Virus record (IMG/VR): IMGVR_UViG_3300028820_000067 | Coordinates: 1 to 22,654 of that record | Length of the DNA stretch: 22,654 nucleotides | Direction: 5' to 3' (one strand) | DNA from: a virus | Part shown: one piece after another, positions 1-22,654 of the stretch | Numbering within the stretch: position 1 is the stretch's first letter | Layout of the letters: every line of letters starts with the position of its first letter | Notes under the pieces: model-generated | What the model was told of the DNA's origin: nothing | Databases searched by the model: none | What the model saw: the letters and a program-made list of their open reading frames with translations, nothing else | Position numbers and translations under genes: made by a program

Positions 1-279
1 TAACGCGCGTTTAATCGCCCATTTTGTCCCTTTTTTAGAGGCAATTAAATAACTTTCTACCGCCAAGCGTCTCACATCATTTGCGTTGCGCGCCAATGCC
101 AAAACCGACGGCGGCAATCCGAATGCCAACGCAATCCTTTCCGCAAGCCATATCGGCGTCTCTGCCCCGATACACAACAGGCACGCCTGAACTAATGCCT
201 GATTCTCTAACCGAACCCGACCAACCTCTTCTAACGCAACCGACTGCGCCGTCCACATTCCCTCTGGCTGATACCTCAT
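1..279 (-). CDS. Phage tail protein I (P2 GpI-like), N-terminal part, runs off the window
   Basis: The frame is open from the ATG at 279 to position 1, giving 93 codons with no stop, so only the N-terminal half of the protein is visible. The ATG overlaps the TGA of the GpJ-like gene (ATGA). The peptide ends in a KKGTKWAIKRAL-like segment, which resembles the conserved KGTPxAIRRAL stretch of the P2 tail protein I family. In P2 the J-I gene order is the same. P2 GpI is a baseplate protein that acts with GpJ at the tail tip. An internal ATG at codon 8 is a possible alternative start. The family call rests on this short motif plus gene order. Confidence 0.72.
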   Translation of the reverse strand, partial: MRYQPEGMWTAQSVALEEVGRVRLENQALVQACLLCIGAETPIWLAERIALAFGLPPSVLALARNANDVRRLAVESYLIASKKGTKWAIKRAL

Positions 280-1103
280 AACAATACCACATTGACCTTT
301 GGAACAAAATAACTCACACTCGGAAACGACGGCGTAACAATCGGACTGCTCGGCTCAATCAACTCCAACTGCTCCACCCCCTCCAAAAACAATGCCTGAC
401 TGACTTCCGCCCAACTTATCACCACCCTAAACCGACACGTATAGCGCGCAGTCATTATCGCTAAAAACTTATTCCCCACCGCTACACGCACCGCATTCTC
501 ATCATAGCCTCGCTTGACTTTTACGCCAATCGTAAAATTAACATTAAACGGCGTTACTTCGCCCGGTACATCATTGGCAATCTCAATCACATCGCAGACA
601 CAGCGCACTTTTTCATCGTTCAAAGCGTTCAGCACGGCGGCTCTCAGTTCTTCATCAGGCTCACCGAATTGACCGGTAATCGCAACCCGAACCGTTCCAA
701 TCGGCACATCGCTTTTTTCATTATAGCCATAAACCAACGCATCTTTTGCACCTGCACTGAGCGCGTGAAACCGATACGCCGACTTCGTGCCTGCCGCAAA
801 CCGCTCTGGCGCAAGCCGAACCCGCAACCGCATCGCTTCATCGTTTTCACCGTCAAGGCGCACTACGCCCAACAGCCGTCCGAGTGCATCTAAAAATTCG
901 CCCCGCGCATTATCTACCGTGTTCTGCAAACACGCATCTTGAATCGCCTCCCGAAGCAAACTCTCGCGATACGCCAAAATATCAATCAGTATCCGCTCTG
1001 GTGTTGCTGGGTGCAAAACTTGTCCGCTCAATCTCTCATACTCCGCAATACACTCTTCCAAAACTTTTTGCGGATTGCGCTCGATAAAATTCAACTGACT
1101 CAT
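276..1103 (-). CDS. Baseplate J-like protein (P2 GpJ / Mu gp47 family)
   Basis: This 275-residue protein has the features of baseplate-wedge J proteins: an N-terminal segment with ILIDILAYRESLLREAIQ, then the LDALGRLLGVVRLDGENDEAMRLR stretch typical of the family, and a beta-rich C-terminal half. P2 GpJ is about 300 residues, so the length is normal. It forms the peripheral baseplate ring that triggers tail contraction. It overlaps the GpV-like gene upstream by 4 bp and the tail-protein-I gene downstream by 4 bp (ATGA in both cases), so it is translationally coupled inside the tail operon. The call is firm at family level. Confidence 0.9.
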   Translation of the reverse strand: MSQLNFIERNPQKVLEECIAEYERLSGQVLHPATPERILIDILAYRESLLREAIQDACLQNTVDNARGEFLDALGRLLGVVRLDGENDEAMRLRVRLAPERFAAGTKSAYRFHALSAGAKDALVYGYNEKSDVPIGTVRVAITGQFGEPDEELRAAVLNALNDEKVRCVCDVIEIANDVPGEVTPFNVNFTIGVKVKRGYDENAVRVAVGNKFLAIMTARYTCRFRVVISWAEVSQALFLEGVEQLELIEPSSPIVTPSFPSVSYFVPKVNVVLL

Positions 1104-1576
1104 CCGTGTGTGATAGTCTCGTTAATTAAATTCGTGTAAGTGCCGGTCGTTTTTCCCGTAAGTTGCGAGGTCATGATGGTTTTAAGTGCCGCACCGCCAT
1201 CCGTTGGCACTGGTGTCCAACTCTGAAACCCACTGACCAACGCATCAACCGTTTCTTTCAGTTTTGCAAATTCACTCAAAAACTGAACGGCTTTCAGCAA
1301 TCCGCCAAACTGGTTGCCGTTGAGCATCAAGGTGTTGGCATTGCCCGGTGGCACATTCTGTTCATCATAAATTGCGCCCAAGACCACGCCCTCGTAGGCT
1401 TCGTTCAGTATCACAGCGACCGTCTCGTTCACTTTCGGCATGGCGTAGCACTTAAAGCGTTCTGTCGAGAGTTGCACCACAGGCAGAAAATCCGTTTCAA
1501 TCTCTTCGGCAAACACTTTCACCCGTGCACGTCCTTTTGTGCCGTCTATGTCAATCACACGTCCGAAGCGTATCAT
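1100..1576 (-). CDS. Baseplate assembly / spike protein (P2 GpV / Mu gp45-like)
   Basis: This 158-residue protein starts MIRFGRVIDIDGTKGRARVKV, the oligonucleotide/oligosaccharide-binding-fold opening of GpV/gp45 central spike proteins. A PVVQLST...MPKVNETVAVILN...EGVVLGAIYDEQN core follows. These proteins sit at the tail tip below the tube and puncture the outer membrane. The C-terminus is Thr/Gly rich and could form the beta-helical needle, but I see no clear HxH iron-binding motif. The gene lies between the GpD-like and GpJ-like genes with 4-bp overlaps on both sides, the usual Mu order (44-45-47). Confidence 0.85.
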   Translation of the reverse strand: MIRFGRVIDIDGTKGRARVKVFAEEIETDFLPVVQLSTERFKCYAMPKVNETVAVILNEAYEGVVLGAIYDEQNVPPGNANTLMLNGNQFGGLLKAVQFLSEFAKLKETVDALVSGFQSWTPVPTDGGAALKTIMTSQLTGKTTGTYTNLINETITHG

Positions 1577-2520
1577 GTGCGCACTCCTTCAAGACTGGTT
1601 TCATAGCCCGACCGTTCAACTTGGTGCTGGGTTTGTTCAACAACATACTTGCCGTCAAACACGCCGGAGCCATTCAGTTCTATCGTCATGCCTGATAGCA
1701 GTCGGATGTCGCCCGGCAGTGTAAGCTCGCACTTTGTTTTTTTGCGGTTAGTTTCTTTCAAAAGTTCGCGTGCGCGTTCAGTGGCTTCGCTGGTTGAATC
1801 AATCCCGCTTTCTACGGCATACAGCACGGGCTCGCCCGTTCCTGCTGTGCCTTCAAGCACCTGTCGCGTCTTTGCATTAAACCCCCTGACCACGCACCGT
1901 TTGTAAGTGCCGATGGCTTTGTCAGAAAATTGATACGATTTCACATCGCCGCGCCGAATCGTTGCGACTGCTGGGCTATCATCTATCTGCCCACGAGGTG
2001 CGAAGATGAGCTCACTGCCTTCCATTTTCATCACATAGCCGTAGCGTTTCGCAAGTCGGTGCAGGAACGCCATGTCGCTCTCGTTGCGTTGGGCTTCGAA
2101 GGCGAGTGTACCGCCGATTTCTCCGACCACGCGCAAGCCGTGCCGTCCTGCAACCGTTTCCACGACCGCTTTCAAGGGCTGTTGCCGATACGAAGCCCAG
2201 CGTTTTTCATACAGTCGCTCCGTGCCTGACACTGCGAGTATCTCAATTCGCTCGCCGCTTCTATCGCCTGTGTAATTGACTTCGTGAATCCGATACAGCC
2301 CGAAATCCCGCACCTGCTCGCTGTTTCCAAGTTTCAGCCGTAAGCGTTCTTCGGCTTTAGGAAACCAACTGCCGCGCCAGCGTCCGTCGCTATCTTCAAA
2401 GACCAATCGCGCCTCGCTTAACTGTTCGTTAAAGCGTTCTGTAATCCCAACGCGCAACAGCCGCTCCGACAGCACCCGCGTCGCCTCTACCCCCTCATAC
2501 TCAAGCTCAAGCCTCATCAT
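1573..2520 (-). CDS. Tail hub protein, late control gene D family (P2 GpD / Mu gp44-like)
   Basis: This 315-residue protein matches the gp27-like hub (phage late control D) family. It has an LELEYEGVEATRVLSERLL opening and an ESDMAFLHRLAKRYGYVMKMEGSELIF segment that is a hallmark of D proteins. It ends with LPGDIRLLSGMTIELNGSGVFDGKYVVEQTQHQV. The hub joins the tail tube to the spike. Two adjacent ATGs (2520 and 2517) are possible starts and neither has a clear Shine-Dalgarno. It overlaps the spike gene by 4 bp and follows the GpW-like gene by 11 bp. Confidence 0.9.
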   Translation of the reverse strand: MMRLELEYEGVEATRVLSERLLRVGITERFNEQLSEARLVFEDSDGRWRGSWFPKAEERLRLKLGNSEQVRDFGLYRIHEVNYTGDRSGERIEILAVSGTERLYEKRWASYRQQPLKAVVETVAGRHGLRVVGEIGGTLAFEAQRNESDMAFLHRLAKRYGYVMKMEGSELIFAPRGQIDDSPAVATIRRGDVKSYQFSDKAIGTYKRCVVRGFNAKTRQVLEGTAGTGEPVLYAVESGIDSTSEATERARELLKETNRKKTKCELTLPGDIRLLSGMTIELNGSGVFDGKYVVEQTQHQVERSGYETSLEGVRT

Positions 2521-2531
2521 TTTATTTCAAC

Positions 2532-3473
2532 TCACCCAGTCACTTGAATTTCAACCTCTATCTCGTACACAATCCCTAACCCCGATAGTCGAAAGCGCGC
2601 CACAGCAATCACATCTCCATATATTCCAACTACATCAAACCCGATTACCTCACTCTCTTTCACCGCTTTCACCACTTGCACCTTCGGCTCTATCGTAATC
2701 CCTTTATCTAACAACTCGCCGTCGTTCAGCACCTCGACCCACACTTCGCCATCAACATCAAAGCCCATCAGGTCTAAATAAATCTCAAAGTTGGATGCAA
2801 AACCGAGCTCAATCACAAACGGAATCTCGTAATCGTAAACAAAATCAATGGGCATGTGGAACTTTCTGGGGGTTGTCATGGCTGATGAATCTGTCGTGCG
2901 CACGCGCCACCAATAGGTGCGTCGTCTCGGTAAATTCACCGTGCGGGTGCGTGTTTCGCCCGTTGAACGATGCACCACCATTTCCATCTGTGCGTCGGTT
3001 GCCACTTCCAACACCAGCTCCCGAAAGCACGGCGAAAAAAACCGAAACTCCACTGGCACCACACGCCCCTCGCCCTCCGTACCTATCACTGCATCAGGCA
3101 ACGGCACAATCGGGTTAATCAAGTAAATCAGCCCATCGGTGTTGAGCGTGATGTCATCTAATTCGCTTGGCTCGCCGAGAAAGTTCAGCGCAAGTTTGAT
3201 AGCGACTTGACCTTGGGCAAGGGCAGTGGAATCAATTTCTACGCGCCTTACTTTTACACGCGGGTCTTGCGAGAGTGCGTCGGCGATGTCTTGTGCCGCT
3301 TGTGCTAAATCCACAGGCTCATCAAGCCGATTGAGCAAGGCGTTGCCGAACTCTGGGCGCATCGGAATCGCGCCCTTCGGCGTAAACAACATCAACCGCA
3401 CGGCTTGTTCAAGGGCTTGCCGACCGCGTGCGCCCAATTTAATCGGCTCTTCGGGGTTAAGGTTAAGAACCAT
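2532..3473 (-). CDS. GpW/gp25-like baseplate wedge protein with a long C-terminal extension
   Basis: Residues about 1-110 look like the gp25/GpW wedge family: a GARGRQALEQAVRLMLFTPKGAIPMRPEFGNALLNRLDEP segment followed by a helix-strand repeat ending near IKLALNF. Normal GpW/gp25 proteins have about 100-140 residues, whereas this one has 313. The extra 200 residues are beta-rich, and a YWWRVRTTD stretch near 187-195 resembles the YxWRVRAxD strand of fibronectin-III-like domains. This is followed by Val/Glu-rich strands. The extension could be a surface-exposed carbohydrate-binding decoration of the baseplate. It overlaps the GpX-like gene by 11 bp. The wedge call is good; the nature of the extension is inference. 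Confidence 0.78.
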   Translation of the reverse strand: MVLNLNPEEPIKLGARGRQALEQAVRLMLFTPKGAIPMRPEFGNALLNRLDEPVDLAQAAQDIADALSQDPRVKVRRVEIDSTALAQGQVAIKLALNFLGEPSELDDITLNTDGLIYLINPIVPLPDAVIGTEGEGRVVPVEFRFFSPCFRELVLEVATDAQMEMVVHRSTGETRTRTVNLPRRRTYWWRVRTTDSSAMTTPRKFHMPIDFVYDYEIPFVIELGFASNFEIYLDLMGFDVDGEVWVEVLNDGELLDKGITIEPKVQVVKAVKESEVIGFDVVGIYGDVIAVARFRLSGLGIVYEIEVEIQVTG

Positions 3474-3684
3474 GTCGCCTCCATGCAGGTTGTGTTTCTA
3501 CAAAAACCTCCGTAGGCATATCTAACACGGGCGCAAACACGCTCACGCCCACAGGCAACGCCCCAAAAATCGGTAAGTGTGGATTGTGTGGCAGAATCTC
3601 CCCAAACCGCCGGGCATCGCCATAGACCCGCTCGGCAATTAAATCCCATCGGTCGTTCTTAATGGTCTCAATCACGATAAACAT
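3463..3684 (-). CDS. Tail protein X (P2 GpX-like, LysM-type)
   Basis: This is a 73-residue protein, starting MFIVIETIKNDRWDLIAERVYGD. The pattern ThrIle-x-xx-RWD-xIAxxxYGD followed by LPIFGALPVGVSVFAPV is that of the GpX / LysM-like tail proteins, which are about 70 residues. I chose the ATG at 3684 because it overlaps the TGA of the GpU-like gene (TGATG). A longer open frame reaches upstream to 3894, but that part overlaps the coding sequence of GpU and is not protein-like. LysM-like folds bind peptidoglycan, which suits a protein at the tail tip. Confidence 0.88.
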   Translation of the reverse strand: MFIVIETIKNDRWDLIAERVYGDARRFGEILPHNPHLPIFGALPVGVSVFAPVLDMPTEVFVETQPAWRRHGS

Positions 3685-4364
3685 CACTCCACCTCCACAA
3701 CTTCGGGCGGATAGGCACGCCCATTGACGTAAGCAATCACAGGACTTTTCGGCATAAACGGCACAACCTTTTTCGGTTTCGGTTTCGGGTTCGGGCTTCG
3801 GCGTTCTCGCTCTACGGTTGCAATCGTTTTCTCGGCATATTCTTTCAGCACCACATCTGCAGTGGCATAAATCGGTGTGCCGTCCAATGCGCACTGCACC
3901 ACAGTTGTCTCCACCGATTCAATCACATACTTGCCGTCGTATATTCCGTTTCCGAAGGTCAAGTGTCGCACCTTGCCGTCTTCGCACGCCGCGCGCAGTT
4001 GTGCTAAGCGGTCTTGTGGGTTGCCGAAAAATTGGTGAAAGGTCATTGTTATTGAAACGCTCCGAAGCCGTGCGCCCATCACTTGCAAGACTTCCTTTCC
4101 AAGCACGGTCTCGTGTGTGGCAAGGTGTTGGCTTGTGCTTTCGCGAAACTGTGTAATTCCTTCGACCATCAGAAATTCAATCTCGCCCAAGCGTGCGAAG
4201 ACTGCCTTGCTTGCGCCTGCTATCGTCTCAAATTGAAGCCGCTCCGCTTGGGTTTGATTTTGCAGACGCGCTCGCTCAAGCACCAAATACAGCGCATAGC
4301 CAATCCCTTGCCCTATCGGATTGTAAGCCACTTGCGAAGCAAGATTGATAGCGTTGAATATCAT
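3684..4364 (-). CDS. Tail terminator / tail-tip protein of the P2 GpU family
   Basis: This 226-residue protein contains the GpU core: FARLGEIEFLMVEGITQF, then ASTxHxxLGKEVLQVMGARLRSVSITMTFHQFFGNPQDRLAQLR, then GNGIYDGKYVIESVETTVVQ. P2 GpU is about 160 residues, so this one has an N-terminal addition of some 55 residues. It also has a Pro/Lys-rich C-terminal tail (PNPKPKPKK near 192-200). It sits between the tape measure (ATGA overlap) and GpX (1-nt overlap), exactly as in P2-like tail operons. Confidence 0.87.
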   Translation of the reverse strand: MIFNAINLASQVAYNPIGQGIGYALYLVLERARLQNQTQAERLQFETIAGASKAVFARLGEIEFLMVEGITQFRESTSQHLATHETVLGKEVLQVMGARLRSVSITMTFHQFFGNPQDRLAQLRAACEDGKVRHLTFGNGIYDGKYVIESVETTVVQCALDGTPIYATADVVLKEYAEKTIATVERERRSPNPKPKPKKVVPFMPKSPVIAYVNGRAYPPEVVEVE

Positions 4365-6136
4365 CGTGCGAAAGCAATCGTTTGGTTGCGTGTCTGAACT
4401 TGACCGACCAATTTCGCTAAATGGTCTTTGTGTTCATTGAGCATTTTAAGGAACTTTTCGGTCTCGCGTGCTTCGGCAGTTTGAATGGTTACCGTCGGCT
4501 GATAGTTGATTTGCAGTTCTGTGGGCAGGTAGCGACCGCCTGATTCGCTTGCTGCGCGCACTTGCATAGTCTTGACGTCTTCTGCGCTTACGCCTTCGCG
4601 CATCAGTTCGTTGTAAGCCGTAACGCCCGTTGAAGCCACCATTAAAAGTGGATTTAATCGCCCGATAAACGACAAGACGCGCCCGCCAAGACCCAAGGCA
4701 CGCCCACCAAGACTGCTCGCACCAGTGCTCGCCGCCGAAATCGGTCTTCCCATTGCATCAACCAAGAGCGGAGGTGCGCTTACGCCGCTCGCACCACCTC
4801 CGCCGCCTGAAAGCAGCTTGCTCAAAAACGCTTTGCCTTTCATGGCTCCGAAGTATGTCGCCACTCCGCTCCCGATTGCGCCCACAAGTCCGCCCGTCAG
4901 CGTCAGTTTCGGATTCTCCGACATCCACCCTGCTACCTCATTCCCAATAAAATCAAATAGCTTCTTTTGAATCTCATTCAAGCCTTCGCCGGCTTTTGCT
5001 AAAGCGTTCTCTAATGCGCCCAGCATGGATTCCTTTTTGAGCGTCGCTGTGCCTTGCAACATTCCAATCACTAATTCTTTGTTTGCGCGCTCCGCATACC
5101 GTCGCCCATACTCCCGAAACGCCGAAACACCACCTTTGGAAAGCATTGCACTTACAAACCGCGCCCCCGTCTCTCCAAAGAGCTCCGACATCACTTGTAA
5201 CCGCTTCTCTTCCGAGAGCGTCTCCAACTTGCTTAATTCCCCCAGCGCATTCTCCAATCCCAAAAACTTCCCTTGCTTATCAAAGAAGGTCATCTTGAAG
5301 TCCTTGCCTATCAATCCTTTCTTTCGGAGTTTGGCAAGTTCTTCGCTCACGCGAGGAAGCCGCTTGGCAAACTCATCAAAGTTTGAGCCTGCCAGCGACC
5401 CTTCTTGCCCCGCCTGTTTCAGCACGCCGAACATCGTCATCACATCTTTCGCACCCTTTGAACCCGTTAGTCCCAGATTCGTTATCGCCGACATCGAATA
5501 CTTCAAACTCTCCGCTAATTCTTCGGTCTCCAACTCAAAGGCATACTTCGCCTTCTGCACATCATTGACAAACGTATCTACTTTTTCTTCGGGCAACTTA
5601 AAGGCATCAAGAAACACATTGACCTGTCCTGCGATTTTGATAAAGTCTTCATCGCTTTTGACTTGCTTAATGGTTGCCAAATCGGCAACCGCCTTTAAGC
5701 CTGCCTTCAATATCACATCTTCTTTGACTTGTCCTTGCCGAAGCGTCGTGGCGACTTCCAAAAAGTTCTTGGCTGACCCTGCATAATCGACGCTCAACTT
5801 TTCGGCAAGGGCAACGAGTTTCGGGAAGTTCTCACTTGTCTTGCCCTGTGCGTTCATGAAGGCAACTGTGGCACGCGTGACGGCTTCCTCGTAGGTTTCG
5901 GCGGCTTTGAGCATTGGGGCAACAAATTGATTGTAGCCCACCATCGCGCCTGTGCCGAACATCACGCCGCTTTCCAAGCCCTTCATCATGCCTTTGCCAA
6001 TCCCCGCAAGTGCCGCACTCGCTCGCTTGGCTTCTGCGCCAAATTGTTTAAGTTCACCCGATAAACGTCGTGTCGCCGACAATGCGCTCTGCGCAATACC
6101 GTCAAATACAACTTTGATATTGACTTTGTTGTGCAT
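4361..6136 (-). CDS. Tail tape measure protein
   Basis: The protein is about 591 residues and largely helical. The N-terminal 90 residues carry the amphipathic heptad pattern common in tape measures (ALSATRRLSGELKQFGAEAKRASAAL). The TP901-type core follows with YEEAVTRATVAFMNAQGK and AGSAKNFLEVATTLRQGQ. A Gly/Ala-rich hydrophobic stretch at about 405-430 and 470-515 probably holds membrane-spanning segments. Its length fixes the tail length; at roughly 1.5 Angstrom per residue the tail would be on the order of 90 nm. The frame can start at a TTG (6145), but the ATG at 6136 is more likely. Confidence 0.9.
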   Translation of the reverse strand: MHNKVNIKVVFDGIAQSALSATRRLSGELKQFGAEAKRASAALAGIGKGMMKGLESGVMFGTGAMVGYNQFVAPMLKAAETYEEAVTRATVAFMNAQGKTSENFPKLVALAEKLSVDYAGSAKNFLEVATTLRQGQVKEDVILKAGLKAVADLATIKQVKSDEDFIKIAGQVNVFLDAFKLPEEKVDTFVNDVQKAKYAFELETEELAESLKYSMSAITNLGLTGSKGAKDVMTMFGVLKQAGQEGSLAGSNFDEFAKRLPRVSEELAKLRKKGLIGKDFKMTFFDKQGKFLGLENALGELSKLETLSEEKRLQVMSELFGETGARFVSAMLSKGGVSAFREYGRRYAERANKELVIGMLQGTATLKKESMLGALENALAKAGEGLNEIQKKLFDFIGNEVAGWMSENPKLTLTGGLVGAIGSGVATYFGAMKGKAFLSKLLSGGGGGASGVSAPPLLVDAMGRPISAASTGASSLGGRALGLGGRVLSFIGRLNPLLMVASTGVTAYNELMREGVSAEDVKTMQVRAASESGGRYLPTELQINYQPTVTIQTAEARETEKFLKMLNEHKDHLAKLVGQVQTRNQTIAFAR

Positions 6137-6177
6137 TGACTGCAAATCTGAATTTGTTACATATGGAAATAAACTTC

Positions 6178-6363
6178 ATGAACATCTTGATTGCCATCGT
6201 CCTCTACACCACGCTAATTGCGCTCATCATTACCACCATTCGCGTGTTTGTTGCTCATATTCGCGGCGAGAAGGTCAGTAGCCCGTTCTTTGAATCACTG
6301 GCTTCCATTTTATTTTTCCTCGCAATTTTCAACTTCTTCTTTGGCAACCACAACCGTGAATAA
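6178..6363 (+). CDS. Possible small membrane protein, antisense to the tail operon
   Basis: From the ATG at 6178 the frame gives 61 residues with two hydrophobic helices: about residues 2-25 (ILIAIVLYTTLIALIITTIRVF) and 42-57 (LASILFFLAIFNFFFG). A short charged loop (HIRGEKVSSPF) separates them. An ATG at 6163 would add five residues. GGAAA lies about 9 nt before 6178 as a weak ribosome site. It is the only plus-strand frame in the tail block and ends precisely where the heptamer array begins. A two-helix protein at such a place could be a moron-type gene such as a superinfection-exclusion factor. No homologue is recognised and it may be spurious. Confidence 0.45.
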   Translation: MNILIAIVLYTTLIALIITTIRVFVAHIRGEKVSSPFFESLASILFFLAIFNFFFGNHNRE

Positions 6364-6396
6364 TGAATAATGAATAGTGAATAATGAATAGTAGGT
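6362..6396 (+). repeat. Heptamer run, direct orientation (AATGAAT / AGTGAAT)
   Basis: Four in-register 7-bp units (AATGAAT, AATGAAT, AGTGAAT, AATGAAT) plus a degenerate one start inside the stop codon of the small membrane ORF. They are followed by GGTTTTT and then the large array in the opposite orientation. Together they form an inverted heptamer structure. Confidence 0.85.
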
Positions 6397-6399
6397 TTT

Positions 6400-6623
6400 T
6401 CATTCCGCAATCCACAATCCGCAATCCACAATCCGCAATCCACAATCCGCAATCCACAATCCGCATTCCCCATTCCTCATTCCTCATTCCACAATCCGCA
6501 ATCCACAATCCACAATCCACAATCCACATTCCCCAATCCGCATTCCACAATCCACAATCCGCATTCCACAATCCACAATCCGCATTCCACAATCCACAAT
6601 CCGCATTCCACAATCCACAATCC
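6400..6623. repeat. 32-unit heptamer array, consensus NCA(A/T)TCC
   Basis: Thirty-two consecutive 7-bp units follow the pattern N-C-A-A/T-T-C-C without a single slip in register. Higher-order structure is visible. Units 2-9 alternate GCAATCC/ACAATCC (14-bp period, four times), and units 21-32 repeat GCATTCC-ACAATCC-ACAATCC (21-bp period, four times). The array begins right after the stop of the chaperone -1 frame extension and ends near the stop of the plus-strand small ORF, so it fills a convergent intergenic space. It gives open frames in several phases only because of its periodicity; I see no coding signal. The large period-7 structure suggests slipped-strand or unequal-crossover expansion. 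Confidence 0.97.
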
Positions 6624-6626
6624 GCA

Positions 6627-6740
6627 TTATTTGCTTATTTGCTTCACCCAAAACAGAAACTCCGACATTGTCATTGCTGACAACTCGGAGTATCTAAACA
6701 GCCCTATGCGTAGCAACGTCAGGACGGCTTCTACAACGCC
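6627..6740 (-). CDS. GpE' extension of the tail chaperone, reached by -1 frameshift
   Basis: In the -1 frame just upstream of the chaperone stop, 37 codons stay open to a TAA at 6629-6627. The translation ends in SAMTMSEFLFWVKQISK. This resembles the C-terminal signature of P2 GpE-type proteins (a Met-x-Leu-x-Glu-Leu-x-x-Trp pattern), which in P2 are made by -1 frameshifting at the end of gene E. The zero-frame codons GAA AAG (6745-6740) contain the A_AAG shifty tetramer. Slippage of the Lys tRNA to AAA would give ...MEK-GVVEAVL.... The tail-chaperone frameshift is known in P2, lambda and Mu; its use here is inferred. Confidence 0.68.
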   Translation of the reverse strand, partial: GVVEAVLTLLRIGLFRYSELSAMTMSEFLFWVKQISK

Positions 6741-7009
6741 TTTTCCATTGAATCCAACTGCTCGGCGAGGCTCGCTAAAAAGCCGTCCCGTAATGCTAAA
6801 AAATCCGCTTGTGGCATCTCTAACACATCTTCCATTGTCAGTTTCTTTCCGTCAAATATCCCAATCGTTGCTAAAAGCGCGGCTTGATACTCCAAGCCTT
6901 CGTCTTTCCCCGAAATACGCACGGCAGTCAGGCAGTCGCGCACCGTCGGCTCCTCAAACTCCACCCGCTCAAACACTCGGCGCACCTTCTTCTTGACTTC
7001 AATCTTCAT
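6731..7009 (-). CDS. Tail assembly chaperone (P2 GpE / Mu gp41-like)
   Basis: This 92-residue protein (MKIEVKKKVRRVFERVEFEEPTVRD...) has the tail-assembly-chaperone layout: an N-terminal beta hairpin, the EEPTVRD motif and then helices (YQAALLATIGIFDGKKLTMEDVLEMPQADFLALRDGFL). Chaperones of this family bind the tape measure before tube polymerisation. The start overlaps the preceding gene stop (ATGA at 7006-7009). The zero-frame product stops at 6731, and a longer form is likely made by frameshifting. The tape measure follows only after a 490-bp gap holding an array and an antisense ORF, which is unusual for this tightly packed operon. Confidence 0.85.
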   Translation of the reverse strand: MKIEVKKKVRRVFERVEFEEPTVRDCLTAVRISGKDEGLEYQAALLATIGIFDGKKLTMEDVLEMPQADFLALRDGFLASLAEQLDSMEKAL

Positions 7010-7716
7010 GACGGCAACCCTCCAAACTCGTTACTATCTTCAAGTGCCATGAAACAAATCGGATTCAGCGGCACAGGCACTGGATAGGTAGCGTATGTTC
7101 CCGTTGTCCAATGTGTAATTTGTACTTCACCCGTCGGAAGTACCACCACAATCGCCGAACCCGATGTAAAACTCGGCAAACTAAATACCTGCCGTGTCGC
7201 AGGTCTAAACTGATCCGGTAAGGTAAAGAGTGTGCCCGTAGGCGTCCCTGTCGCAGGCTTATTAAAAAACCCTTCCAAAAACACCCGATTCGAAATATCC
7301 CGATACACCTTCACAAACGGTGTAATGCTCCCCGCGCTACTCAACCCAAACGGATTTCCATATACATTACTTTCATTCTGATAATCTCTTAGTAGAAAGT
7401 GATTGAACGGTGGATTGAGACTCAACATCGATAAAATCATTCGTGCGCCTGCCATGATTTTCCTGCGCGAGACTGCGCCGTCCGCAATCCGATTTTCAGT
7501 CACCCAGTTCGGCGACTCAACCGCCGATAGCCGCGCGTGCAAATTCCTCGTGCGATTCACCAACGCTTGCGTTGCCAAATTAGAAAAGGCGTTAGTGCCA
7601 TCAGGGTTGCGCGCTAAAACTGAATCCGTGTTCTTCAACCGATACACCCTGCCTGTCGACCAGTTATAGGTCTCGCTCTCGCCAAAATTCGGCTCCACTT
7701 GTGGTATATCCGACAT
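7006..7716 (-). CDS. Fibre-like / receptor-binding-type structural protein between tube and chaperone
   Basis: This is a 236-residue protein. Residues about 20-70 (TGRVYRLKNTDSVLARNPDGTNAFSNLATQALVNRTRNLH) resemble the N-terminal attachment region of phage fibre and baseplate-upper proteins, with the recurring ALxNRTxxL motif. The C-terminal half has a GTLFTLPDQFRPATRQVFSLPSF stretch followed by IVVVLPTGEVQITHW. This is the pattern of small beta-sandwich tip domains of fibres (LPxGFRP...G.V..). It sits between tail tube and tail chaperone, where P2 and Mu have no fibre gene. It may decorate the tail tube or act as a short fibre. The family is not certain. Confidence 0.55.
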   Translation of the reverse strand: MSDIPQVEPNFGESETYNWSTGRVYRLKNTDSVLARNPDGTNAFSNLATQALVNRTRNLHARLSAVESPNWVTENRIADGAVSRRKIMAGARMILSMLSLNPPFNHFLLRDYQNESNVYGNPFGLSSAGSITPFVKVYRDISNRVFLEGFFNKPATGTPTGTLFTLPDQFRPATRQVFSLPSFTSGSAIVVVLPTGEVQITHWTTGTYATYPVPVPLNPICFMALEDSNEFGGLPS

Positions 7717-7718
7717 CG

Positions 7719-8237
7719 CTACGCTCCTGTGTTGAGTTTATAGCCTTCTAACAAATTCTCTCCATTCACCTTGTAGATGTTTGCCAGCACATCGACTTCA
7801 AAGAGTGTCGCCCCTGCCACAATGAGCTTAGCATAATACACCGTCATCATGCATTCCATCGTTACATTTTCGTTCTGCCGAAACTGCCCCAAATCCATAT
7901 CCTTAAAAATTCCCGCTGTGGAATACACGACTGGCAGTTGTGTTAAGCGTCCTTGTGGCGTGTAGGTTTCCAAGTTGCATCGCGCCATCAGGTTATAGAC
8001 CTTTGTGGGATTGAGCGCAACGCCGAAGGCTTCGGGATAAAACGCGCTCCACTTCAATCGGCTTTCCATTTTCTCAAAGCCCGACGGAAACTCCGTCTCG
8101 CCTACCATGCCCAATGCCTTGTGGTCTATCATCTTGGATTTGACCTTCGGCAAATCTAATTCTTCGACGCGTCCCAAATACGAGACGCCGTCTAAATACA
8201 CATTCGCATTCGTGAGTCGGTTAATCAGTAGTGCCAT
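7719..8237 (-). CDS. Major tail tube protein (P2 FII-like)
   Basis: This 172-residue protein is of the P2 FII type. It opens LTNANVYLDGVSYLGRVEELDLPKVKSK, continues with a GMVGETEFPSGFEKMESRLKWSAFYPE segment, and ends in a beta-rich half with MTVYYAKLIVAGATLFEVDVLANIYKVNG. P2 FII has about 172 residues, the same length. It polymerises as hexameric rings to form the inner tube. It follows the sheath stop by 11 bp, the usual sheath-tube order. Confidence 0.93.
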   Translation of the reverse strand: MALLINRLTNANVYLDGVSYLGRVEELDLPKVKSKMIDHKALGMVGETEFPSGFEKMESRLKWSAFYPEAFGVALNPTKVYNLMARCNLETYTPQGRLTQLPVVYSTAGIFKDMDLGQFRQNENVTMECMMTVYYAKLIVAGATLFEVDVLANIYKVNGENLLEGYKLNTGA

Positions 8238-8248
8238 GTGGTGCTGAA

Positions 8249-8470
8249 TTAAAATTTCAAAAGTGAAATATCAACAAAGGATTCAAAGCGCACGCGCTCC
8301 ATCGGCACAGGCGGCATGAAGTTGAAATCAAACCGCAATTTGCCTTGTGCGATTTCTGTTTCAGGATTTTTTGCGCTATCAAACACACACTCGCCATCGA
8401 CCAGCGCGCCGCGTGCAATGAGCGTGCGCATAAACGCATTCACCGTCTCTATCGGCGGTTGCATCGCGCT
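8249..8470 (-). pseudogene. Tail sheath protein, C-terminal remnant only
   Basis: About 73 codons are left: AMQPPIETVNAFMRTLIARGALVDGECVFD, then EIAQGKLRFDFNFMPPVPMERVRFE, ending SLLKF with a TAA at 8251-8249. These are the last two conserved blocks of P2-like contractile sheath proteins, which are normally about 390-480 residues. Upstream of about 8470 the sequence changes to cas9 in a different frame. No start codon belonging to a sheath is present, so some 320 or more residues are missing. Without a sheath this tail block cannot make a working contractile tail unless an intact copy exists elsewhere. Confidence 0.85.
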
Positions 8471-9687
8471 TGTATTTGCTGTAAGTGCTAAGTTTCTGCA
8501 CAAAGCCTTGTGTGGTTGCGGCAATGACGGCGGCATCGAGCGCATGGTGTCGGTGGTCTTTGCGGTTCTTTTCGGCAAGGGCTTCTAACTCATCGAGCGT
8601 GGCTTCCTGTCGATTTTTGCCAAGCGGGTGCAGGAGCGAATTGAGTCCCCAGAGGGTTCGGAGTTTTGCGGTGGCTTGTCCGTTGCTGACAACGATGTTC
8701 GGGCAAATGGTTTCGAGATAGGCTTTGGCTTCGCGAGCAAGATACGCCGTATCGTTGAGCTGGAGCGAGATGAAGTCTTCTGTGTTAATTTCCTCTTGCG
8801 TAAAGCGTCGGAGTTTTGGATTGACTTTCTCTTTCTTCTTTTTCTTTGCAAAGCCAAGGAGTTCAGCAAGGTCACGAAACTTTTTCACACGCTCAATCAT
8901 CTGCTTATATTCCGCTTCGCTGATGACTATTCGCTCTTTCATTTCAAAGGGCGAGAGGTTTTTCTTTTTCTTGCGGTTGAAGTCGGCAAAGCAAAGCGTG
9001 AGGTTGTTAAAGGAATCGTCTTGTGTGCGCGAGTAAGGCAAGATGTGTTCAATGTCAATCTCGTTGTTTCGGAAAAGCATTTCGGCAGAAATTTGCTTGC
9101 CCGTGTAAGGACAAACGCCCTTACATTCGAGTCAGAGTTTATACTTGATGATGTCCTCGCTTGAAGGATTTTGGATACCAAGTTTTCGGATTTCATTAGC
9201 GGCGTGTTCGTTGATTTTGCGGCGCATTTCATTTTCTTTGGTGAGTTCTTCGCGTTTTGCTTTGGGCAATTTCAGTTCGCGTGCAAACTCGATATGGATA
9301 GCGTCGGGCTTTCCGTATTTTTTGATGAGTGCATTCACAAGTCGGCGCAGTTCAAACAAGCCTTGTTGCACAATGGGGTTGCGTAGGTTCGGGACTTCAT
9401 CAAGTTTGTCTAACAGTGCTTTTGGGCGTTTATCGCTGTGGTGATAGCCTGCTTCGACGCACGCATCAGAATAATTAAACCCTTGTTTGAAAAATGGAAT
9501 GAGCTTCTTCATGGCGCGTTGGCTTAGACTTGCGTAGCCTTGTTTGAAGTGGATTTTGGTCAAGGCTTTTGCGCCTGCGTCAGAGAGTCCCCATTTTTCT
9601 TTGCCGTATCGCTCCAACCACTCGTTATCGGTTGCATCGTAGATGATTTTCCATCAGCGTTCTTTTTCGTTATCGATAAACCGGAAG
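8471..9687 (-). pseudogene. cas9: cas9 fragment: RuvC-II, HNH and RuvC-III region, two in-frame TGA stops
   Basis: One continuous minus-strand frame of about 405 codons reads as the second half of a type II-C-like Cas9. Recognisable parts in order are WKIIYDATDNEWLERYGKEKWGLSD; KIHFKQGYASLS; AGYHHSD; RuvC-II (IHIEFARELKLPKAKRE); CKGVCPYTGKQIS; the HNH motif (IDIEHILPYSRTQDDSFNNL...FNRKKKK); and RuvC-III (DHRHHALDAAVIAAT). TGA replaces a sense codon at 9656-9654 (family usually Leu, before Trp) and at 9134-9132 (family Trp). The N-terminal RuvC-I, bridge helix and recognition lobe are missing at the phage end. The C-terminal PAM-interacting domain is missing at the sheath junction. The HNH and visible RuvC catalytic residues remain, but the gene cannot make Cas9. 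Confidence 0.92.
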
Positions 9688-9844
9688 TTTGAGAATTGAG
9701 AAAAAAGTCAGAAAGTTGCTGTAAGTGCTTGCGAAAACAACACTTATGGACAACAACGCTCGCAAAGACGGTTTGAGAATTTTTCCGATTTTCTTCCGAA
9801 TTATGCTCATAGTTTGAGAATTTTTTGTGTGATTTTGGTGAAAA
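9688..9844 (+). mobile_element. Presumed left end of the Mu-like prophage (transposase-binding repeats)
   Basis: Three direct copies of GTTTGAGAATT occur at 9688-9698, 9771-9781 and 9812-9822, all in the same orientation, outside the repressor gene and next to interrupted cas9. Mu has three MuA sites at its left end with a wide first gap and a narrow second gap, and here the spacings are 83 and 41 bp. A 5'-TG, as at Mu termini, occurs at 9690-9691, but all three copies share the GTT before it. The exact end is therefore uncertain, somewhere between about 9657 and 9690. The right end and the target duplication are not in the window. Confidence 0.72.
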
Positions 9845-10624
9845 TTAAGGTTGCTTGATGATGAGAACCACACGACCTACGATGGAGGCTTGAACCGCTG
9901 GCGTAAGTTTAATAGACTTGAATTTTGGGTTGGCAGGTTTGAGCCAGAACTCGCCGTTTTTGCGTTTTTGGAGTGTTTTGACCGTGTAACCTTCGCCAGG
10001 AAGGCTGACGACAACGATTTTGTTGGGAATAGGCTCGGTGGTGCGGTCGACAACGATGATGTCTCCGTCGGCGATGCCTGCGCCGACCATTGATGAGCCC
10101 AAAACACGCACAGCAAAGGCGTTTTTAGGGCGTTTAAGGAGCTTTTTATCGAGGATTAAATGCTCGTGATGGTCGTCAGGCGGAAGGTCGGGTGTACCTG
10201 CGGGGATTCTGTAAGTGTAGAATGGGATTTGGATTTCGTCTTCGGGGGTGGGGAGGGGTTGGAAGTCGGAATGGCGTGCGGAAACGAGTTTGTAGAGGTA
10301 ATTGACCTTTTGCTCTAATTGCTTGATTTTATGAGGCTCGGCGGGCGATGGCGTAGGCGGCTCTTGTGCTTGTTTTTCCTCTCCCTTCTCTTCTTGCTTC
10401 TCCTCTTTCTTCTGAAACATCTCCCCTTTACCTGTTAAAAGCCAATTTACATTGAGACCGAAATGTTGATTAACTAACATCAACATCTCCCCGCCGGGAA
10501 TACTTAAATCTGATTCCACTTGTGATAAAAAACTTCGAGAAACCTTGATTTTATCAGCGATTTCAGCTTGTGTCAGTCCCAATTTTTTTCTAAACACACC
10601 AAAACGCTCTCCTATTGTATTCAT
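9845..10624 (-). CDS. LexA/CI-type phage repressor (XRE HTH plus S24 self-cleaving domain)
   Basis: This 259-residue protein has an N-terminal XRE helix-turn-helix (residues about 8-65: LTQAEIADKIKVSRSFLSQVESD). A Lys/Glu/Pro-rich linker (71-100) follows, then an S24 peptidase domain. The likely cleavage bond is Ala-Gly in YRIPAGTPD. The catalytic Ser is in LGSSMVGAGIADGDIIVVDRT and the Lys in GYTVKTLQKR. Such repressors hold the early promoter shut and self-cleave when RecA filaments form after DNA damage, so the prophage is probably SOS-inducible. This differs from Mu itself, whose c repressor is not of the S24 type. It diverges from the early operon across 56 bp. Confidence 0.93.
   Translation of the reverse strand: MNTIGERFGVFRKKLGLTQAEIADKIKVSRSFLSQVESDLSIPGGEMLMLVNQHFGLNVNWLLTGKGEMFQKKEEKQEEKGEEKQAQEPPTPSPAEPHKIKQLEQKVNYLYKLVSARHSDFQPLPTPEDEIQIPFYTYRIPAGTPDLPPDDHHEHLILDKKLLKRPKNAFAVRVLGSSMVGAGIADGDIIVVDRTTEPIPNKIVVVSLPGEGYTVKTLQKRKNGEFWLKPANPKFKSIKLTPAVQASIVGRVVLIIKQP
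10463..10486. promoter_or_regulatory. Inverted repeat inside repressor gene, possible operator
   Basis: ATGTTGAT and ATCAACAT (8-bp arms) flank the central TAACTAAC. The central octamer is the reverse complement of GTTAGTTA in the early-promoter repeats. This could be an additional repressor site, but it lies in coding sequence and may be chance. Confidence 0.3.
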
Positions 10625-10680: not shown

Positions 10681-10932
10681 ATGATTACTAAACTAACAAA
10701 ATTAGGTCAAATGGAAGGCGAAGTCTTGAAAAAGCGCGATACACGGAGAATGAAGTCGATTTGTCGTGGTATTTATGCGCAAATCGCATCTGAAATCGGC
10801 AAGAGCGAAAACGCTGTGCGGATGGCGATTCGGCGCGGTAACTGGGAATTGCAAAAACGATATGCAGAGATTTTGAAAGAAAGACTATCGGTCAGAGATG
10901 AATTTCAAAAACTCTTAAAGGAGGTTGCCTGA
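10681..10932 (+). CDS. Small HTH protein, first early gene (Ner-position regulator)
   Basis: This is an 83-residue basic protein. The segment IYAQIASEIGKSENAVRMAIRRGNW (residues about 38-62) looks like a helix-turn-helix. It is the first gene after the early promoter and stands opposite the repressor, the place of ner in Mu, where Ner down-regulates early and repressor transcription. Sequence similarity to Ner is not evident, so the role is inferred from position. An upstream TTG at 10660 is in frame but lies in the promoter; the ATG at 10681 is preferred. The gene ends in an AGGAGGT that serves as the ribosome site of the transposase gene, and its TGA overlaps that ATG. Confidence 0.7.
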   Translation: MITKLTKLGQMEGEVLKKRDTRRMKSICRGIYAQIASEIGKSENAVRMAIRRGNWELQKRYAEILKERLSVRDEFQKLLKEVA

Positions 10933-12998
10933 TGGAAAACGCGCTGAAACAGGTTCGAGACTTTGATAATGATTTCTCGAACCAAATCTCGAACCTTGAA
11001 GATGTAGTTCGAATCCCTGTTAACTTATTTGATAACAATCATTTACAAGAAAATAAGACTTTTTTAGCGATGGAAGAAGTCTCGAACCTTTTGGGTGTAT
11101 CAGAAGCGGCTATTCGGAAAGCAATCAAGGCGGGGAAATACAGGGCGGTTAGAGATTTGGTTGATGGTCGGAAGCCGTATCGCATTGCGTTGTCGTCGTT
11201 GCCGATTGAGGCACAGAGGAAGTGGGCGAAGATGAAGGGTGTAGGTCGTGATGAGGGTGAAGTGATGAGTGCGGTTGAGGTACGGGCGTTGGCGGAGGCA
11301 CCTGACTACAATCGGCGGAAGGCGTTGCGGTATTTAGAGGCGTTTCGGGTGATTGAGGGGTTGAAAGGCGAAACAGCAATTCAAGAGGCGTTGGACAAGG
11401 CGGGGATTGAGTTGGATTACAAGTCGGTGATGCGGGAGCGGGCGCGGTATCGCGAGGAAGGGATTACGGCGTTGATTGGCAAGTATGGGAAGCGGAAAGG
11501 AACTTCGATTCTTGATGATGAGAAGCGGTTTGGGAAAGGAATCCGAGAAGTCTATGCGTTTTTCAAGTCGCTCTATTTGAAGGAAGGTGCGCCGTCGTTG
11601 CAGGCGTGTTATGTGGCGACGGTGGGGTTTGCCAAAGAGCGTGGGTATGAAGGGTTGATTCAGCGTGGGGAGTTTCCGAGTGCGGATACGTTTCGGGACA
11701 AGTTGCGCAAGGAGATTGGGGAGAGTGCGATATACTTGGCGCGCTATGGGCAGGCGGCGTGGAATAGGAAGTATGCGGCGTTTGCGCATCGGGATTATAC
11801 GAAGGTCAAGGCGGGGGCGGTATGGGTTTCTGACCATAGGCAACTTGACCAGCTTTGGATAATGCCAGATGGCACAAAGAAGCGGGTATGGATAACGGTG
11901 TGGCGGGATTTTAAGACGGCGAAGTGGCTCTCATGGTTGCTCCATGTGGAGGCACCGAACTCGGAGCATGTATTCGAGACATTCTGCCAAGCGGTAGCGA
12001 AGTGGGGAGTGCCAGAAGAGATTTTGATTGATAACGGGAAGGATTATCGGGTGCATGATTTTGCGGGCGGTCGGAAGGTGCATCGGGTTGAGGTGGATAC
12101 GGGTCGGGCGCGGAGTTTGATGGCGTTGCTTGGGATACGGGTGCATTTTAGTGCGCCTTACAATGCGCAGGCGAAGCCGATTGAGCGGGATTTCCTTTTG
12201 TTCAAGGAGTGGTGCGATAAGATGTCGAGTGGGTATTTCGGTGGGAATCCGGTGGAGCGACCGGAGATGGTTGTGCCGAGGTTGGTATTTGAGCGGGGCG
12301 AGGAGATTGTCAGTGAGTTTGTGGAGCGGGTGTTGAATGTCTATAAGTCAGATGGGAAGGTTCATTGTGGGCGGTCGCGTGATGAGGTGTGGAATCAGGA
12401 GTTTGAGGGGTTGAAGCGCGTGAGCGAAGAGGCGTTGCGGCTCTATCGGTTCAGGGTATCGGGTGAATTTACGATTCGGCGGAATGGGATTTACGATTCA
12501 AAGCTCAGGGATTATTACTACGGGGTATGGTGTGAAGGGAACGAGGGTCGGCGGGTGTATTTACGGCGGAATCCGAAGCGGTATCAAGAGGCATGGGTAT
12601 TTGATGCGAAGACAGATGAGTATTTGGGGGTAGCGGTGTTGGGGTATTGGTCGACGGCGGCGTTGGCGAAGTCGTCGTTGGAGTTAGCGAAGGTTAAGGA
12701 AGTGATACAGGCGAAGAAGCGGCAGAAGAAGACGCTGAAATTGTTGAATGAGCAAGGGTTTAAGATAAGCGAAGCGGAGTTGGTGCGGTATCAGGCGGCG
12801 GGGTTGGCGAATGAGACGGGTGGTGTGAGTGAGGAGGTTGCGAAGGCGACGGTGACGATGCTGACGAAGATGGACGAGGTAGCGGCGACGGCGAAGCGGA
12901 CGGGGACGCATGATATTTCGGCGTTTGGGGTTAGTGATGAGGAGATGGAGCGGGAGCGGGAGAAGCGGAAGGTGAAGTATCATTTTTTGAGGGATTAA
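10932..12998 (+). CDS. MuA-like DDE transposase
   Basis: This 688-residue protein is close to Mu A (663) in length. Residues about 42-100 form a Mu-type DNA-binding HTH (FLAMEEVSNLLGVSEAAIRKAIKAGKYRAVR...IALSSLP). A second helical DNA-binding region follows to about 280. The catalytic core has Asp301 (VWVSDHRQLD), Asp367 (ILIDNGKDY) and Glu418 (NAQAKPIERDF), spaced much like D269-D336-E392 of MuA. The C-terminus is basic and helical, as expected for the segment contacting B. It binds phage ends and carries out strand transfer in replicative transposition. A strong AAAGGAGGT lies just upstream of the ATG, which overlaps the previous stop (TGATG). Confidence 0.96.
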   Translation: MENALKQVRDFDNDFSNQISNLEDVVRIPVNLFDNNHLQENKTFLAMEEVSNLLGVSEAAIRKAIKAGKYRAVRDLVDGRKPYRIALSSLPIEAQRKWAKMKGVGRDEGEVMSAVEVRALAEAPDYNRRKALRYLEAFRVIEGLKGETAIQEALDKAGIELDYKSVMRERARYREEGITALIGKYGKRKGTSILDDEKRFGKGIREVYAFFKSLYLKEGAPSLQACYVATVGFAKERGYEGLIQRGEFPSADTFRDKLRKEIGESAIYLARYGQAAWNRKYAAFAHRDYTKVKAGAVWVSDHRQLDQLWIMPDGTKKRVWITVWRDFKTAKWLSWLLHVEAPNSEHVFETFCQAVAKWGVPEEILIDNGKDYRVHDFAGGRKVHRVEVDTGRARSLMALLGIRVHFSAPYNAQAKPIERDFLLFKEWCDKMSSGYFGGNPVERPEMVVPRLVFERGEEIVSEFVERVLNVYKSDGKVHCGRSRDEVWNQEFEGLKRVSEEALRLYRFRVSGEFTIRRNGIYDSKLRDYYYGVWCEGNEGRRVYLRRNPKRYQEAWVFDAKTDEYLGVAVLGYWSTAALAKSSLELAKVKEVIQAKKRQKKTLKLLNEQGFKISEAELVRYQAAGLANETGGVSEEVAKATVTMLTKMDEVAATAKRTGTHDISAFGVSDEEMEREREKRKVKYHFLRD

Positions 12999-13074: not shown

Positions 13075-14058
13075 ATGAGCAAGATAGCAAATTTATCGGT
13101 TATGAACCAACTGAAAGAGTGGTTCGAGAGGAAGCAAGCGGCGGCGAAGGCGCGTGGGGAGAGTTACTCATACGCCGACCTTGCGCGTGATTTGGGTTAC
13201 GCCGAGAATTCGTCGCTGATGTCACAATACTTCGCGGGGAAGTATGCGGGGGATTTAGTAAAGCTGGAGCGGCGGATTGTGGAGTTTTTGCGGCGCGAGA
13301 GCGAGTTGCAGGAGTTGATTGAGTGGTCGAGTTTGGAAGAGGAGCGGTTTCGGTTTGTGGAGACGAGTGTGTTTAAGCGGTTGAATGAAGCGGCGAAGAT
13401 GTGTCAGCTTCGGGGGCAGATTGGGCGTTTGACGGGCGAATCGGGGCGTGGGAAGACGCGGGCGGTGTTGGAGTATGCGCGTCGGGATAGTGGGGTGATT
13501 GTGATTCAGGCGCACAAGTATTTTACGGCGAAGGAAGTATTTCGGGAAATTGCATACAAATGCGGGATTGAGCCGCGCGGCACGATTCACACGTTGATGT
13601 TGGGTATTGTTGAGAAGCTTAAAGGCACGCGTCGGCTTATCATTATTGACGAGGCAGAGCATCTGAACGCAAACACACTCGATGAAATCCGACAGTTAAA
13701 TGACCGAGCGGGCGTAGGTGTGTTGTATGTTGGGACGGAAAAATTCAAGTCTAAAATCACGACGCTGCGGGGTGATTACGGTTACATTGTGAATCGGATT
13801 AAGGTGCCGGCGACACTTGCGCCAATTACGGTAAGCGATGTGAAGATGTTGGTTGAAACGGTGATTGAAAGTCCTTCGGAAGCGGTTGTAAATGCGTTTG
13901 CCAAGGAAGCGATGGGCGATGTGCGTTTACTGGAGAATTTGGTCTTTAAGGCGATTGTGGCGGCAAGGCATTCAGGGGTTTCTGTGAATAGTACTGAATT
14001 CGTGAAAATCATTCACGATGTCGCAGACATTTTACTGGAAAGGGGGGTTGCGGCATGA
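13075..14058 (+). CDS. MuB-like AAA+ ATPase, target-DNA activator
   Basis: This 327-residue protein (Mu B is 312) has an N-terminal helix-turn-helix region (residues about 15-80: SYADLARDLGYAENSSLMSQYFAGKYAGD) like the MuB N-domain. The AAA+ core carries Walker A GESGRGKT at about 122-129 and Walker B RLIIIDEAEHL near 190-200. A C-terminal helical lid with VTVSDVKMLVETV follows. MuB coats target DNA in an ATP-dependent way, stimulates A and provides target immunity. The start lacks a Shine-Dalgarno and is preceded by an A-rich stretch (ACATAAACAACT). Its stop overlaps the next ORF (ATGA). Confidence 0.95.
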   Translation: MSKIANLSVMNQLKEWFERKQAAAKARGESYSYADLARDLGYAENSSLMSQYFAGKYAGDLVKLERRIVEFLRRESELQELIEWSSLEEERFRFVETSVFKRLNEAAKMCQLRGQIGRLTGESGRGKTRAVLEYARRDSGVIVIQAHKYFTAKEVFREIAYKCGIEPRGTIHTLMLGIVEKLKGTRRLIIIDEAEHLNANTLDEIRQLNDRAGVGVLYVGTEKFKSKITTLRGDYGYIVNRIKVPATLAPITVSDVKMLVETVIESPSEAVVNAFAKEAMGDVRLLENLVFKAIVAARHSGVSVNSTEFVKIIHDVADILLERGVAA

Positions 14059-14940: not shown

Positions 14941-15390
14941 ATGAATATTACGACGCAACAAATCAAGCGGATTAAGGCTCTAACTAAGAAACTTGGGTGG
15001 GACGATGAAACATATCGAGCAGTGCTTAAGCACTGGTTTGATGTGGAGTCTTGTAAGGAGCTTTCGTATAGTGGAGCGAATCAGTGTATCAAGATGATGA
15101 CGGCGGCACTTCCGCCGTCGCAAACGAGTGTAAACTATGTGTCGGCACAGGAGTTTTTTGACATTCCGAGTTGGCGACAAGGGGTATGGGCAACGACGTC
15201 ACAACTTTGGAAGATTTGGTATCTGTGGAAAGCAGTCTCGAGACAAACCACAGATGAGGATAGGAAAAGAGCGTTCCGAGTGTGGTTGAAAAATCACTTT
15301 AATCTCTCGGATTTCAAGATGATTCAGCGCGAGCATGTGAGTAAAATCATTCAAGCACTTGAAGCAATGCAAGCTCAACAGCAGAAGTAA
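14941..15390 (+). CDS. GemA / Mu gp16-like regulatory protein (DUF1018)
   Basis: This 149-residue protein starts MNITTQQIKRIKALTKKLGWDDETYRAVL, the signature opening of the gp16/GemA family (I..I..L...LG.DDETYR..L). The middle (VNYVSAQEFFDIPSWRQGVWATTSQLWKIWYLW) and the WLKNHFNLSDFKMI block are also typical. In Mu, GemA influences host gene expression and DNA topology. It is preceded by a strong AAAAAAGGAGGG ribosome site and is the last gene of the early operon before a putative terminator. Confidence 0.88.
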   Translation: MNITTQQIKRIKALTKKLGWDDETYRAVLKHWFDVESCKELSYSGANQCIKMMTAALPPSQTSVNYVSAQEFFDIPSWRQGVWATTSQLWKIWYLWKAVSRQTTDEDRKRAFRVWLKNHFNLSDFKMIQREHVSKIIQALEAMQAQQQK

Positions 15391-21187: not shown

Positions 21188-21209
21188 TGCTTGTTCTTCT
21201 TTTTTTTAT

Positions 21210-21245: not shown

Positions 21246-21248
21246 TGG

Positions 21249-22015: not shown

Positions 22016-22603
22016 ATGCCATACAAGCGACATTTGATTTTCAAGACAGGTGTTCATAACCCTGCCAAGGGCGAGCGGGTATGGACGGCAGAGAAAGTCA
22101 GAGCACTATACGAAAACACGCTTGCCCATAGCCCTGAACAGATTCCCTACACGATAAAACACCCTTCGAATCACCTGCCGATTCTTGGTTTTGCGAAGAA
22201 AAGTGAGTTAAAACTGCATGAGCGAGGCGGTGAAGTCTATCTTTCGGCGGTGCCGTCGAGTTTTGCTGATGCGTTTGTGGAGCTCTTGAAGCGCGCACAG
22301 TTTGATAAGCCGTCGATTGCGATTGGGCAGAAGGGCGAGATTGTTCATATCGGCTTGGTGGATAAGCCGGCGGTCGAAGGTGTTGAAGCGGCGTTTGAAC
22401 GGGCGAGCGCGTCGGACGTCGTTGAAGAAATTGAGTCGTCGTTCTCAATCGAAGAGGCGGAAATGGTATCAGAGTTATCGAGCGTGATGATGCTGTTTAG
22501 TGAATTGATGGAGCGGGTGAAGCGGGCGTTTGAACGCCCTCACCCCAGTGCTCTCCCAAAGGGAGAAGGTATCCCTCACCCCAGTGCTCTCCCAGTGGGC
22601 TAA
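22016..22603 (+). CDS. Capsid maturation protease / scaffold (Mu gpI-like)
   Basis: This is a 195-residue protein. The first 135 residues (WTAEKVRALYENTL, then IPYTIKHPSNHLPILGFAKKSELKLHERGGEVYLSAVP, then FDKPSIAIG) fit the Mu I-protein type of prohead protease, with an H-P-x-N-H-x-P-x-x-G core and the later S(I/V)-type strand. The middle is acidic and helical, scaffold-like. The last 25 residues (RPHPSALPKGEGIPHPSALPVG) come from two copies of the dispersed repeat. Mu I is 361 residues, so this is short. The stop codon lies in a hairpin before the next gene. Confidence 0.75.
   Translation: MPYKRHLIFKTGVHNPAKGERVWTAEKVRALYENTLAHSPEQIPYTIKHPSNHLPILGFAKKSELKLHERGGEVYLSAVPSSFADAFVELLKRAQFDKPSIAIGQKGEIVHIGLVDKPAVEGVEAAFERASASDVVEEIESSFSIEEAEMVSELSSVMMLFSELMERVKRAFERPHPSALPKGEGIPHPSALPVG
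22537..22599. repeat. Two tandem REP-like repeats inside the protease 3' end
   Basis: CCCTCACCCCAGTGCTCTCCCAAAGGGAGAAGG (22537-22569) and CCCTCACCCCAGTGCTCTCCCAGTGGG (22573-22599). The second copy is cut short where the GCTAATCT hairpin begins. Both are translated as the protease C-terminus. Confidence 0.88.
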
Positions 22604-22631
22604 TCTTGTCGCATAAAAATGCGAGATTAGC
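22599..22631 (+). promoter_or_regulatory. Long hairpin overlapping the protease stop and preceding the next gene
   Basis: GCTAATCT (22599-22606) pairs with AGATTAGC (22624-22631), and CGCAT (22610-22614) pairs with ATGCG (22619-22623) around an AAAA loop. A TGT bulge is left on one side. The protease stop TAA (22601-22603) is part of the stem. No T-tract follows, so it is more likely an mRNA processing or stability element than a terminator. Confidence 0.65.
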
Positions 22632-22651
22632 GTAAAAGAGAGGAGCAAGCA

Positions 22652-22654
22652 ATG
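22652..22654 (+). CDS. Start codon of the next gene (scaffold or major capsid expected)
   Basis: An ATG closes the window, preceded at a proper distance by AGAGAGGAGC, a strong ribosome site. In Mu the gene after I is scaffold Z or capsid T. No coding sequence is visible to confirm which. Confidence 0.5.

Follow-up and report, generated by a model that had tools for sequence, protein, structure and literature searches.

How does part of a cas9 gene come to lie against the left-end repeats of a Mu-like phage in a sequence recorded as viral? We addressed this question in the complete IMG/VR record IMGVR_UViG_3300028820_000067, hereafter the window (22,654 bases, classed linear), beyond which lie the right prophage end, the other part of cas9 and any target duplication. 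The original prediction was that the prophage had landed in a host cas9, leaving a single-frame second half of the gene that stops abruptly at the left-end repeats.

The Cas9 fragment and the Mu-like left half

The cas9 segment contains the following features:

8452..9677, minus strand: type II (putatively II-C-like) Cas9, middle third, with RuvC-II, HNH and most of RuvC-III (profile and relatives)
9654..9656, minus strand: in-frame TGA, Arg in intact relatives (alignment to relatives)
9132..9134, minus strand: in-frame TGA, Trp in intact relatives (alignment to relatives)

The predicted RuvC-II, HNH and RuvC-III signal is real and far above chance, with matches to NCBIfam cas_Csn1 (E 8e-100) and to Pfam HNH_4 and RuvC_III. 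Solved Cas9 structures match the read-through protein over 47-406. The two in-frame stops contradict the predicted single frame, and the segment is a middle third rather than a second half: it covers about residues 418-808 of a 1154-aa relative, and the C-terminal ~346 residues are absent as well. A functional type II cas9 would combine a complete frame with RuvC-I, HNH, RuvC-II/III and a PAM domain, whereas this one carries two stops and has lost both ends. Reading TGA as tryptophan was rejected, as one stop replaces Arg and the other Trp codons are TGG. The fragment is about 75% identical to its intact relatives at the nucleotide level. Its ratio of amino-acid to silent changes (pN/pS-type) is 0.10-0.12 against each intact copy, compared with 0.12-0.16 among the intact copies, and it shows no clear acceleration of amino-acid change over them. 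This similar level of constraint suggests that the cas9 remained functional until not long ago and that the stops are recent.

The fragment is cut abruptly on both sides, by the left-end repeats on one and by a piece of tail sheath on the other; the latter cut, on its downstream side, was not part of the original prediction. The phage genes on the left-end side are as follows:

9683..9825, plus strand: Mu-like phage left end with three putative transposase-binding sites (repeated motif)
9845..10624, minus strand: phage repressor, HTH and S24 peptidase (profile)
10932..12998, plus strand: Mu-type transposase A (profile; 48-50% identical to the prophage in genome G015)
13075..14058, plus strand: transposase B-like AAA ATPase (profile)
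14941..15390, plus strand: GemA (profile)
16590..19232, minus strand: fused Mu portal and Mu F with an ADP-ribosyltransferase-like C-terminus (profile)
19195..20748, minus strand: large terminase (profile)

The left-end sites contain near-identical 12-mers, GTTTGAGAATT at 9687, 9771 and 9812 (AGTTTGAGAATT-type from 9686, 9770 and 9811), spaced by 84 and 41 bp. Cas9 homology ends at 9669-9677, within ~17 bp of these sites, which bears out the abrupt stop. Separately, an exact 14-nt direct repeat, TTGCTGTAAGTGCT, occurs at 8476-8489 (in cas9, near its cut end) and at 9716-9729 (inside the phage left end); no role was found for this repeat.

The Mu-type transposase A and its AAA partner B are both present (DDE_2, HTH_Tnp_Mu_2, AAA_22), together with the Mu-type head genes for portal, F, GemA and terminase. 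The window resembles Mu, BalMu-1 and DMS3, which likewise have transposase A/B, GemA, Mu portal/F and repeated left-end sites (in the window, putative transposase sites), but its transposase is only 24-25% identical to those of Mu and BalMu-1, and its tail is inverted and IS-interrupted. A collinear layout occurs in a prophage region of G015, which shares repressor, A, B, GemA, sheath, tube, TMP, D and gpW with the window at 25-52% identity and bears related GAAGTTTGAGA sites at one end. This region (G015:C1:304245-325853, L100-L102) combines genes for Mu transposition with a complete contractile tail, has no portal or terminase match, and is perhaps a head-less, tail-only element. As a further observation, the portal, Mu F-like and ADP-ribosyltransferase-like domains of the window share one 880-aa frame, whereas portal and F occupy separate frames in relatives; the C-terminal part of the fusion has a 48% relative in genome G089.

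Host origin of the cas9

Relatives of the fragment were sought in a sample of 395 genomes from one GTDB phylum. Three of them (G298, G348 and G089) encode intact Cas9 proteins with 76-79% identity (78-79% over the whole fragment), accompanied by cas1, cas2, a tracr-like anti-repeat and an array. The best of them has cas1, cas2 and an array of 25 repeats next to it. In G089 the locus runs array, cas2, cas1, cas9 (1154 aa) and a tracr-like anti-repeat. The orthologues thus lie in a chromosomal cas locus, as expected for a host cas9 rather than phage cargo. Neither csn2 nor cas4 was seen among the neighbours of the intact cas9, and on this basis the locus is labelled II-C-like; subtype II-C is accordingly a probable assignment from gene content. 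The window shares this Cas9 family with the II-C-like loci of G298 and G089, which have the order array-cas2-cas1-cas9-tracr, but unlike them holds a pseudogene fragment only.

One bacterial family (nine genomes in the sample) accounts for the matches to the cas9, to the IS and to the CRISPR repeat, and G015 belongs to the same order. We take the window's group to be Chlorobiales-related mat bacteria, in which few phages have been described.

A position inside a phage contig and a mostly open reading frame could suggest that the phage carries the cas9 piece as cargo, perhaps as a decoy or an inhibitor. The two stops and the cut domains speak against cargo, and no relative of the fragment was found in viral contigs or in the relatives of the left half. 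Nor is the fragment conserved in related phages at the tail, being absent from the tail module of ~60 tail relatives. We therefore rejected Cas9 as a phage gene and consider the cargo reading very improbable. The ordinary host orthologues and the lack of cas9 in the tail relatives indicate that the fragment is host DNA.

Inverted tail and state of the prophage

Beyond the downstream cut of the fragment lies the tail module, in three parts:

1..8237, minus strand: genes of a contractile tail (tube, TMP, LysM-type, D, spike, gpW, gp47), in reverse orientation to the left half (profiles, relatives, GC skew)
8249..8446, minus strand: tail sheath, C-terminal ~62 codons, severed from the N-half (phrog_23 profile, relatives)
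8447..8457, no strand: junction of tail sheath and cas9, an inversion or chimera point (alignments)

A search of the left-half relatives L005-L009 with a sheath profile found none, which first suggested a two-phage chimera. A tail from an unrelated phage was rejected, because both the sibling contig L119 and G015 link the sheath to the same type of left half. L119 is 97-98% identical to the window over 20155-22566, and in it the protease, the capsid and, further on, the N-half of the sheath all read in the plus direction; the early and tail genes of the collinear G015 relative also share one direction. The left half has a GC skew of +0.30 to +0.34, also where its genes lie on the minus strand, whereas the tail gives -0.21, equivalent to +0.21 in its native orientation. 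The layout of L119, the gene direction in G015 and the GC skew together indicate that the tail was recently flipped, either biologically or as a data artefact. Mu replicative transposition was rejected as the origin of the sheath-cas9 join, since a phage end would mark such a join and there is none at this one.

In the case of an artefact, the junction between left end and cas9 would be real, but assembly or amplification would have created a chimera where cas9 meets the inverted sheath. When amplification produces chimeras, most of them link parts of a single molecule in inverted orientation, often with complementarity of 2-21 nt (PMC1855051). Truncation of the sheath would be fatal, yet at least 250 residues of sheath precede the junction spot in 54 of the 59 relatives, where the sheath is intact. 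The contigs of this phage group are also short and break easily, as L119 and a second sibling, L011, exemplify. On the other side, the sheath-cas9 junction has no long repeat. L011, 97% identical to the window over 1-6124, comes from a mat metagenome (sample 3300028839, orange/yellow Yellowstone mat, 51 C; PMC9600594), and the text of that paper, which concerns the sample of L011, bears no sign of such amplification. Moreover, the head protease is independently broken by an insertion sequence, as expected in a decaying prophage. An artefact at this join is a real possibility, though short of probable. It is because the contig shows this separate decay that we slightly prefer a natural inversion.

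The same junctions would also arise if two related prophages facing in opposite directions had flanked a cas9 stretch, and a deletion had then taken the 3' part of cas9 together with the leading portion of the second phage. Mu-like phages do form polylysogens and deletions around CRISPR loci (PMC11406979). This course requires two insertions, a deletion and a lost phage end, and a second copy was not seen; we regard it as quite unlikely.

The break in the head protease lies at the right contig end:

22016..22603, plus strand: head maturation protease, truncated to 195 aa from 324 aa in L119 (comparison with L119)
22598..22654, plus strand: terminal stretch of an IS4-type insertion sequence, breaking the head protease gene (match to G400)

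The IS end matches the stretch directly before an IS4-family transposase in G400 (100% over 34 bp, 86% overall), a genome of the same bacterial family as the cas9 relatives. An assembly mis-join at a dispersed repeat, considered as the cause of the right contig end, was replaced by this IS4-type insertion. A dispersed repeat, CTCACCCCAGTGCTCTCCCA, is found at 21210, 22537 and 22573. An intact prophage would have unbroken structural genes in canonical order, whereas here the sheath is cut at 8447-8457 and the protease at 22598. With its tail inverted and its protease gene interrupted by the IS, the prophage is very likely defective. Its genes are otherwise 97-98% like those of the siblings, which indicates that the decay is recent.

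Probable insertion into cas9 and a CRISPR-repeat-like unit

That a prophage sits in cas9, as originally predicted, is supported by the Cas9 homology that runs up to the Mu-like left end and by the host-type orthologues; the clean layout of host cas9 beside an intact prophage did not hold, given the inverted, truncated tail and the IS4-type end. We consider it highly probable that a Mu-like phage inserted in a host cas9. Transposition would be the natural reading of how it did so, from what is established for Mu. The phage would have used its transposase to enter a type II-C cas9 near codon 418, antiparallel to the gene, so that its left end abuts the cas9 part downstream of the insertion point. 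The lysogen would later have decayed, acquiring two stops in cas9 and an IS4-type element in the head protease gene. A single inversion, with breakpoints in the tail sheath gene and in cas9 (about 1.2 kb past the left end), would flip the tail module and fuse the sheath C-terminus to cas9, reproducing the contig layout without a second phage. We infer this order of events, and with it the natural existence of the sheath-cas9 junction; the account as a whole, from insertion through later decay to natural inversion, appears on balance probable. Splitting cas9 would have cost the cell the immunity provided by that locus: interference would be removed, and the adaptation genes may remain.

Mu-like prophages insert near-randomly. 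Spacers of the host arrays in the sampled genomes gave no convincing match to the phage, the best in the window being at most 15 bp, at chance level. Selection for the insertion is therefore not supported, and random insertion is enough. Mostly, the case looks unremarkable, a further instance of phage insertion into a gene, here in a damaged, rearranged prophage contig or a partly mis-assembled one. DMS3, a Mu-like phage, offers a parallel: its lysogens of Pseudomonas aeruginosa resolve CRISPR self-targeting through phage-mediated loss of the locus (PMC11406979). Common to both would be a host CRISPR locus put out of action by a transposable phage, but DMS3 lysogens undergo large deletions of a type I locus under selection, whereas in the window the probable event is insertion into a type II cas9, and selection is not evident. 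The window would show, from nature, a type II cas9 split by a transposable phage, which bears on the mutual exclusion of lysogeny and CRISPR immunity. It also advises caution over cas genes in viral contigs, which may represent flanking host DNA combined with rearrangement.

The tail module contains one more CRISPR-related element:

6128-6163, plus strand: solitary CRISPR-repeat-like unit, 36 nt (32-33/36 to repeats of G089, G298 and G400)

The same comparison gave a maximum of 23 in shuffled windows. The unit, whose cognate host would be the one indicated by these repeats, overlaps the TMP start codon; on the strand opposite the tape-measure gene it borders a small ORF. At this site L011 has an unrelated 40 bp, with flanks that match on both sides (8 bp only on one). 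The unit RNA is predicted to pair with host tracr anti-repeats at -35 to -39 kcal/mol; the G089/G298 repeats reach -42 to -46 kcal/mol, and shuffled sequences average -9. No promoter stands out at the unit, and viral contigs scanned for the exact pattern contained no further copy. Phage-borne solitary repeats can act as RNA anti-CRISPRs (PMC10651486). By analogy, the unit is possibly a candidate RNA anti-CRISPR (Racr) and would, were it expressed, represent such an element for a type II system. The phage might then counter the host type II-C CRISPR twice, with the unit RNA occupying tracrRNA/Cas9 and with cas9-landed lysogens kept, their self-targeting gone; we think this unlikely.

A minisatellite-like dispersed repeat (AATCCGCAATCC type) also lies between phage genes, at 6384-6613 in the window and at 2944-3020 and 5151-5205 in L119.
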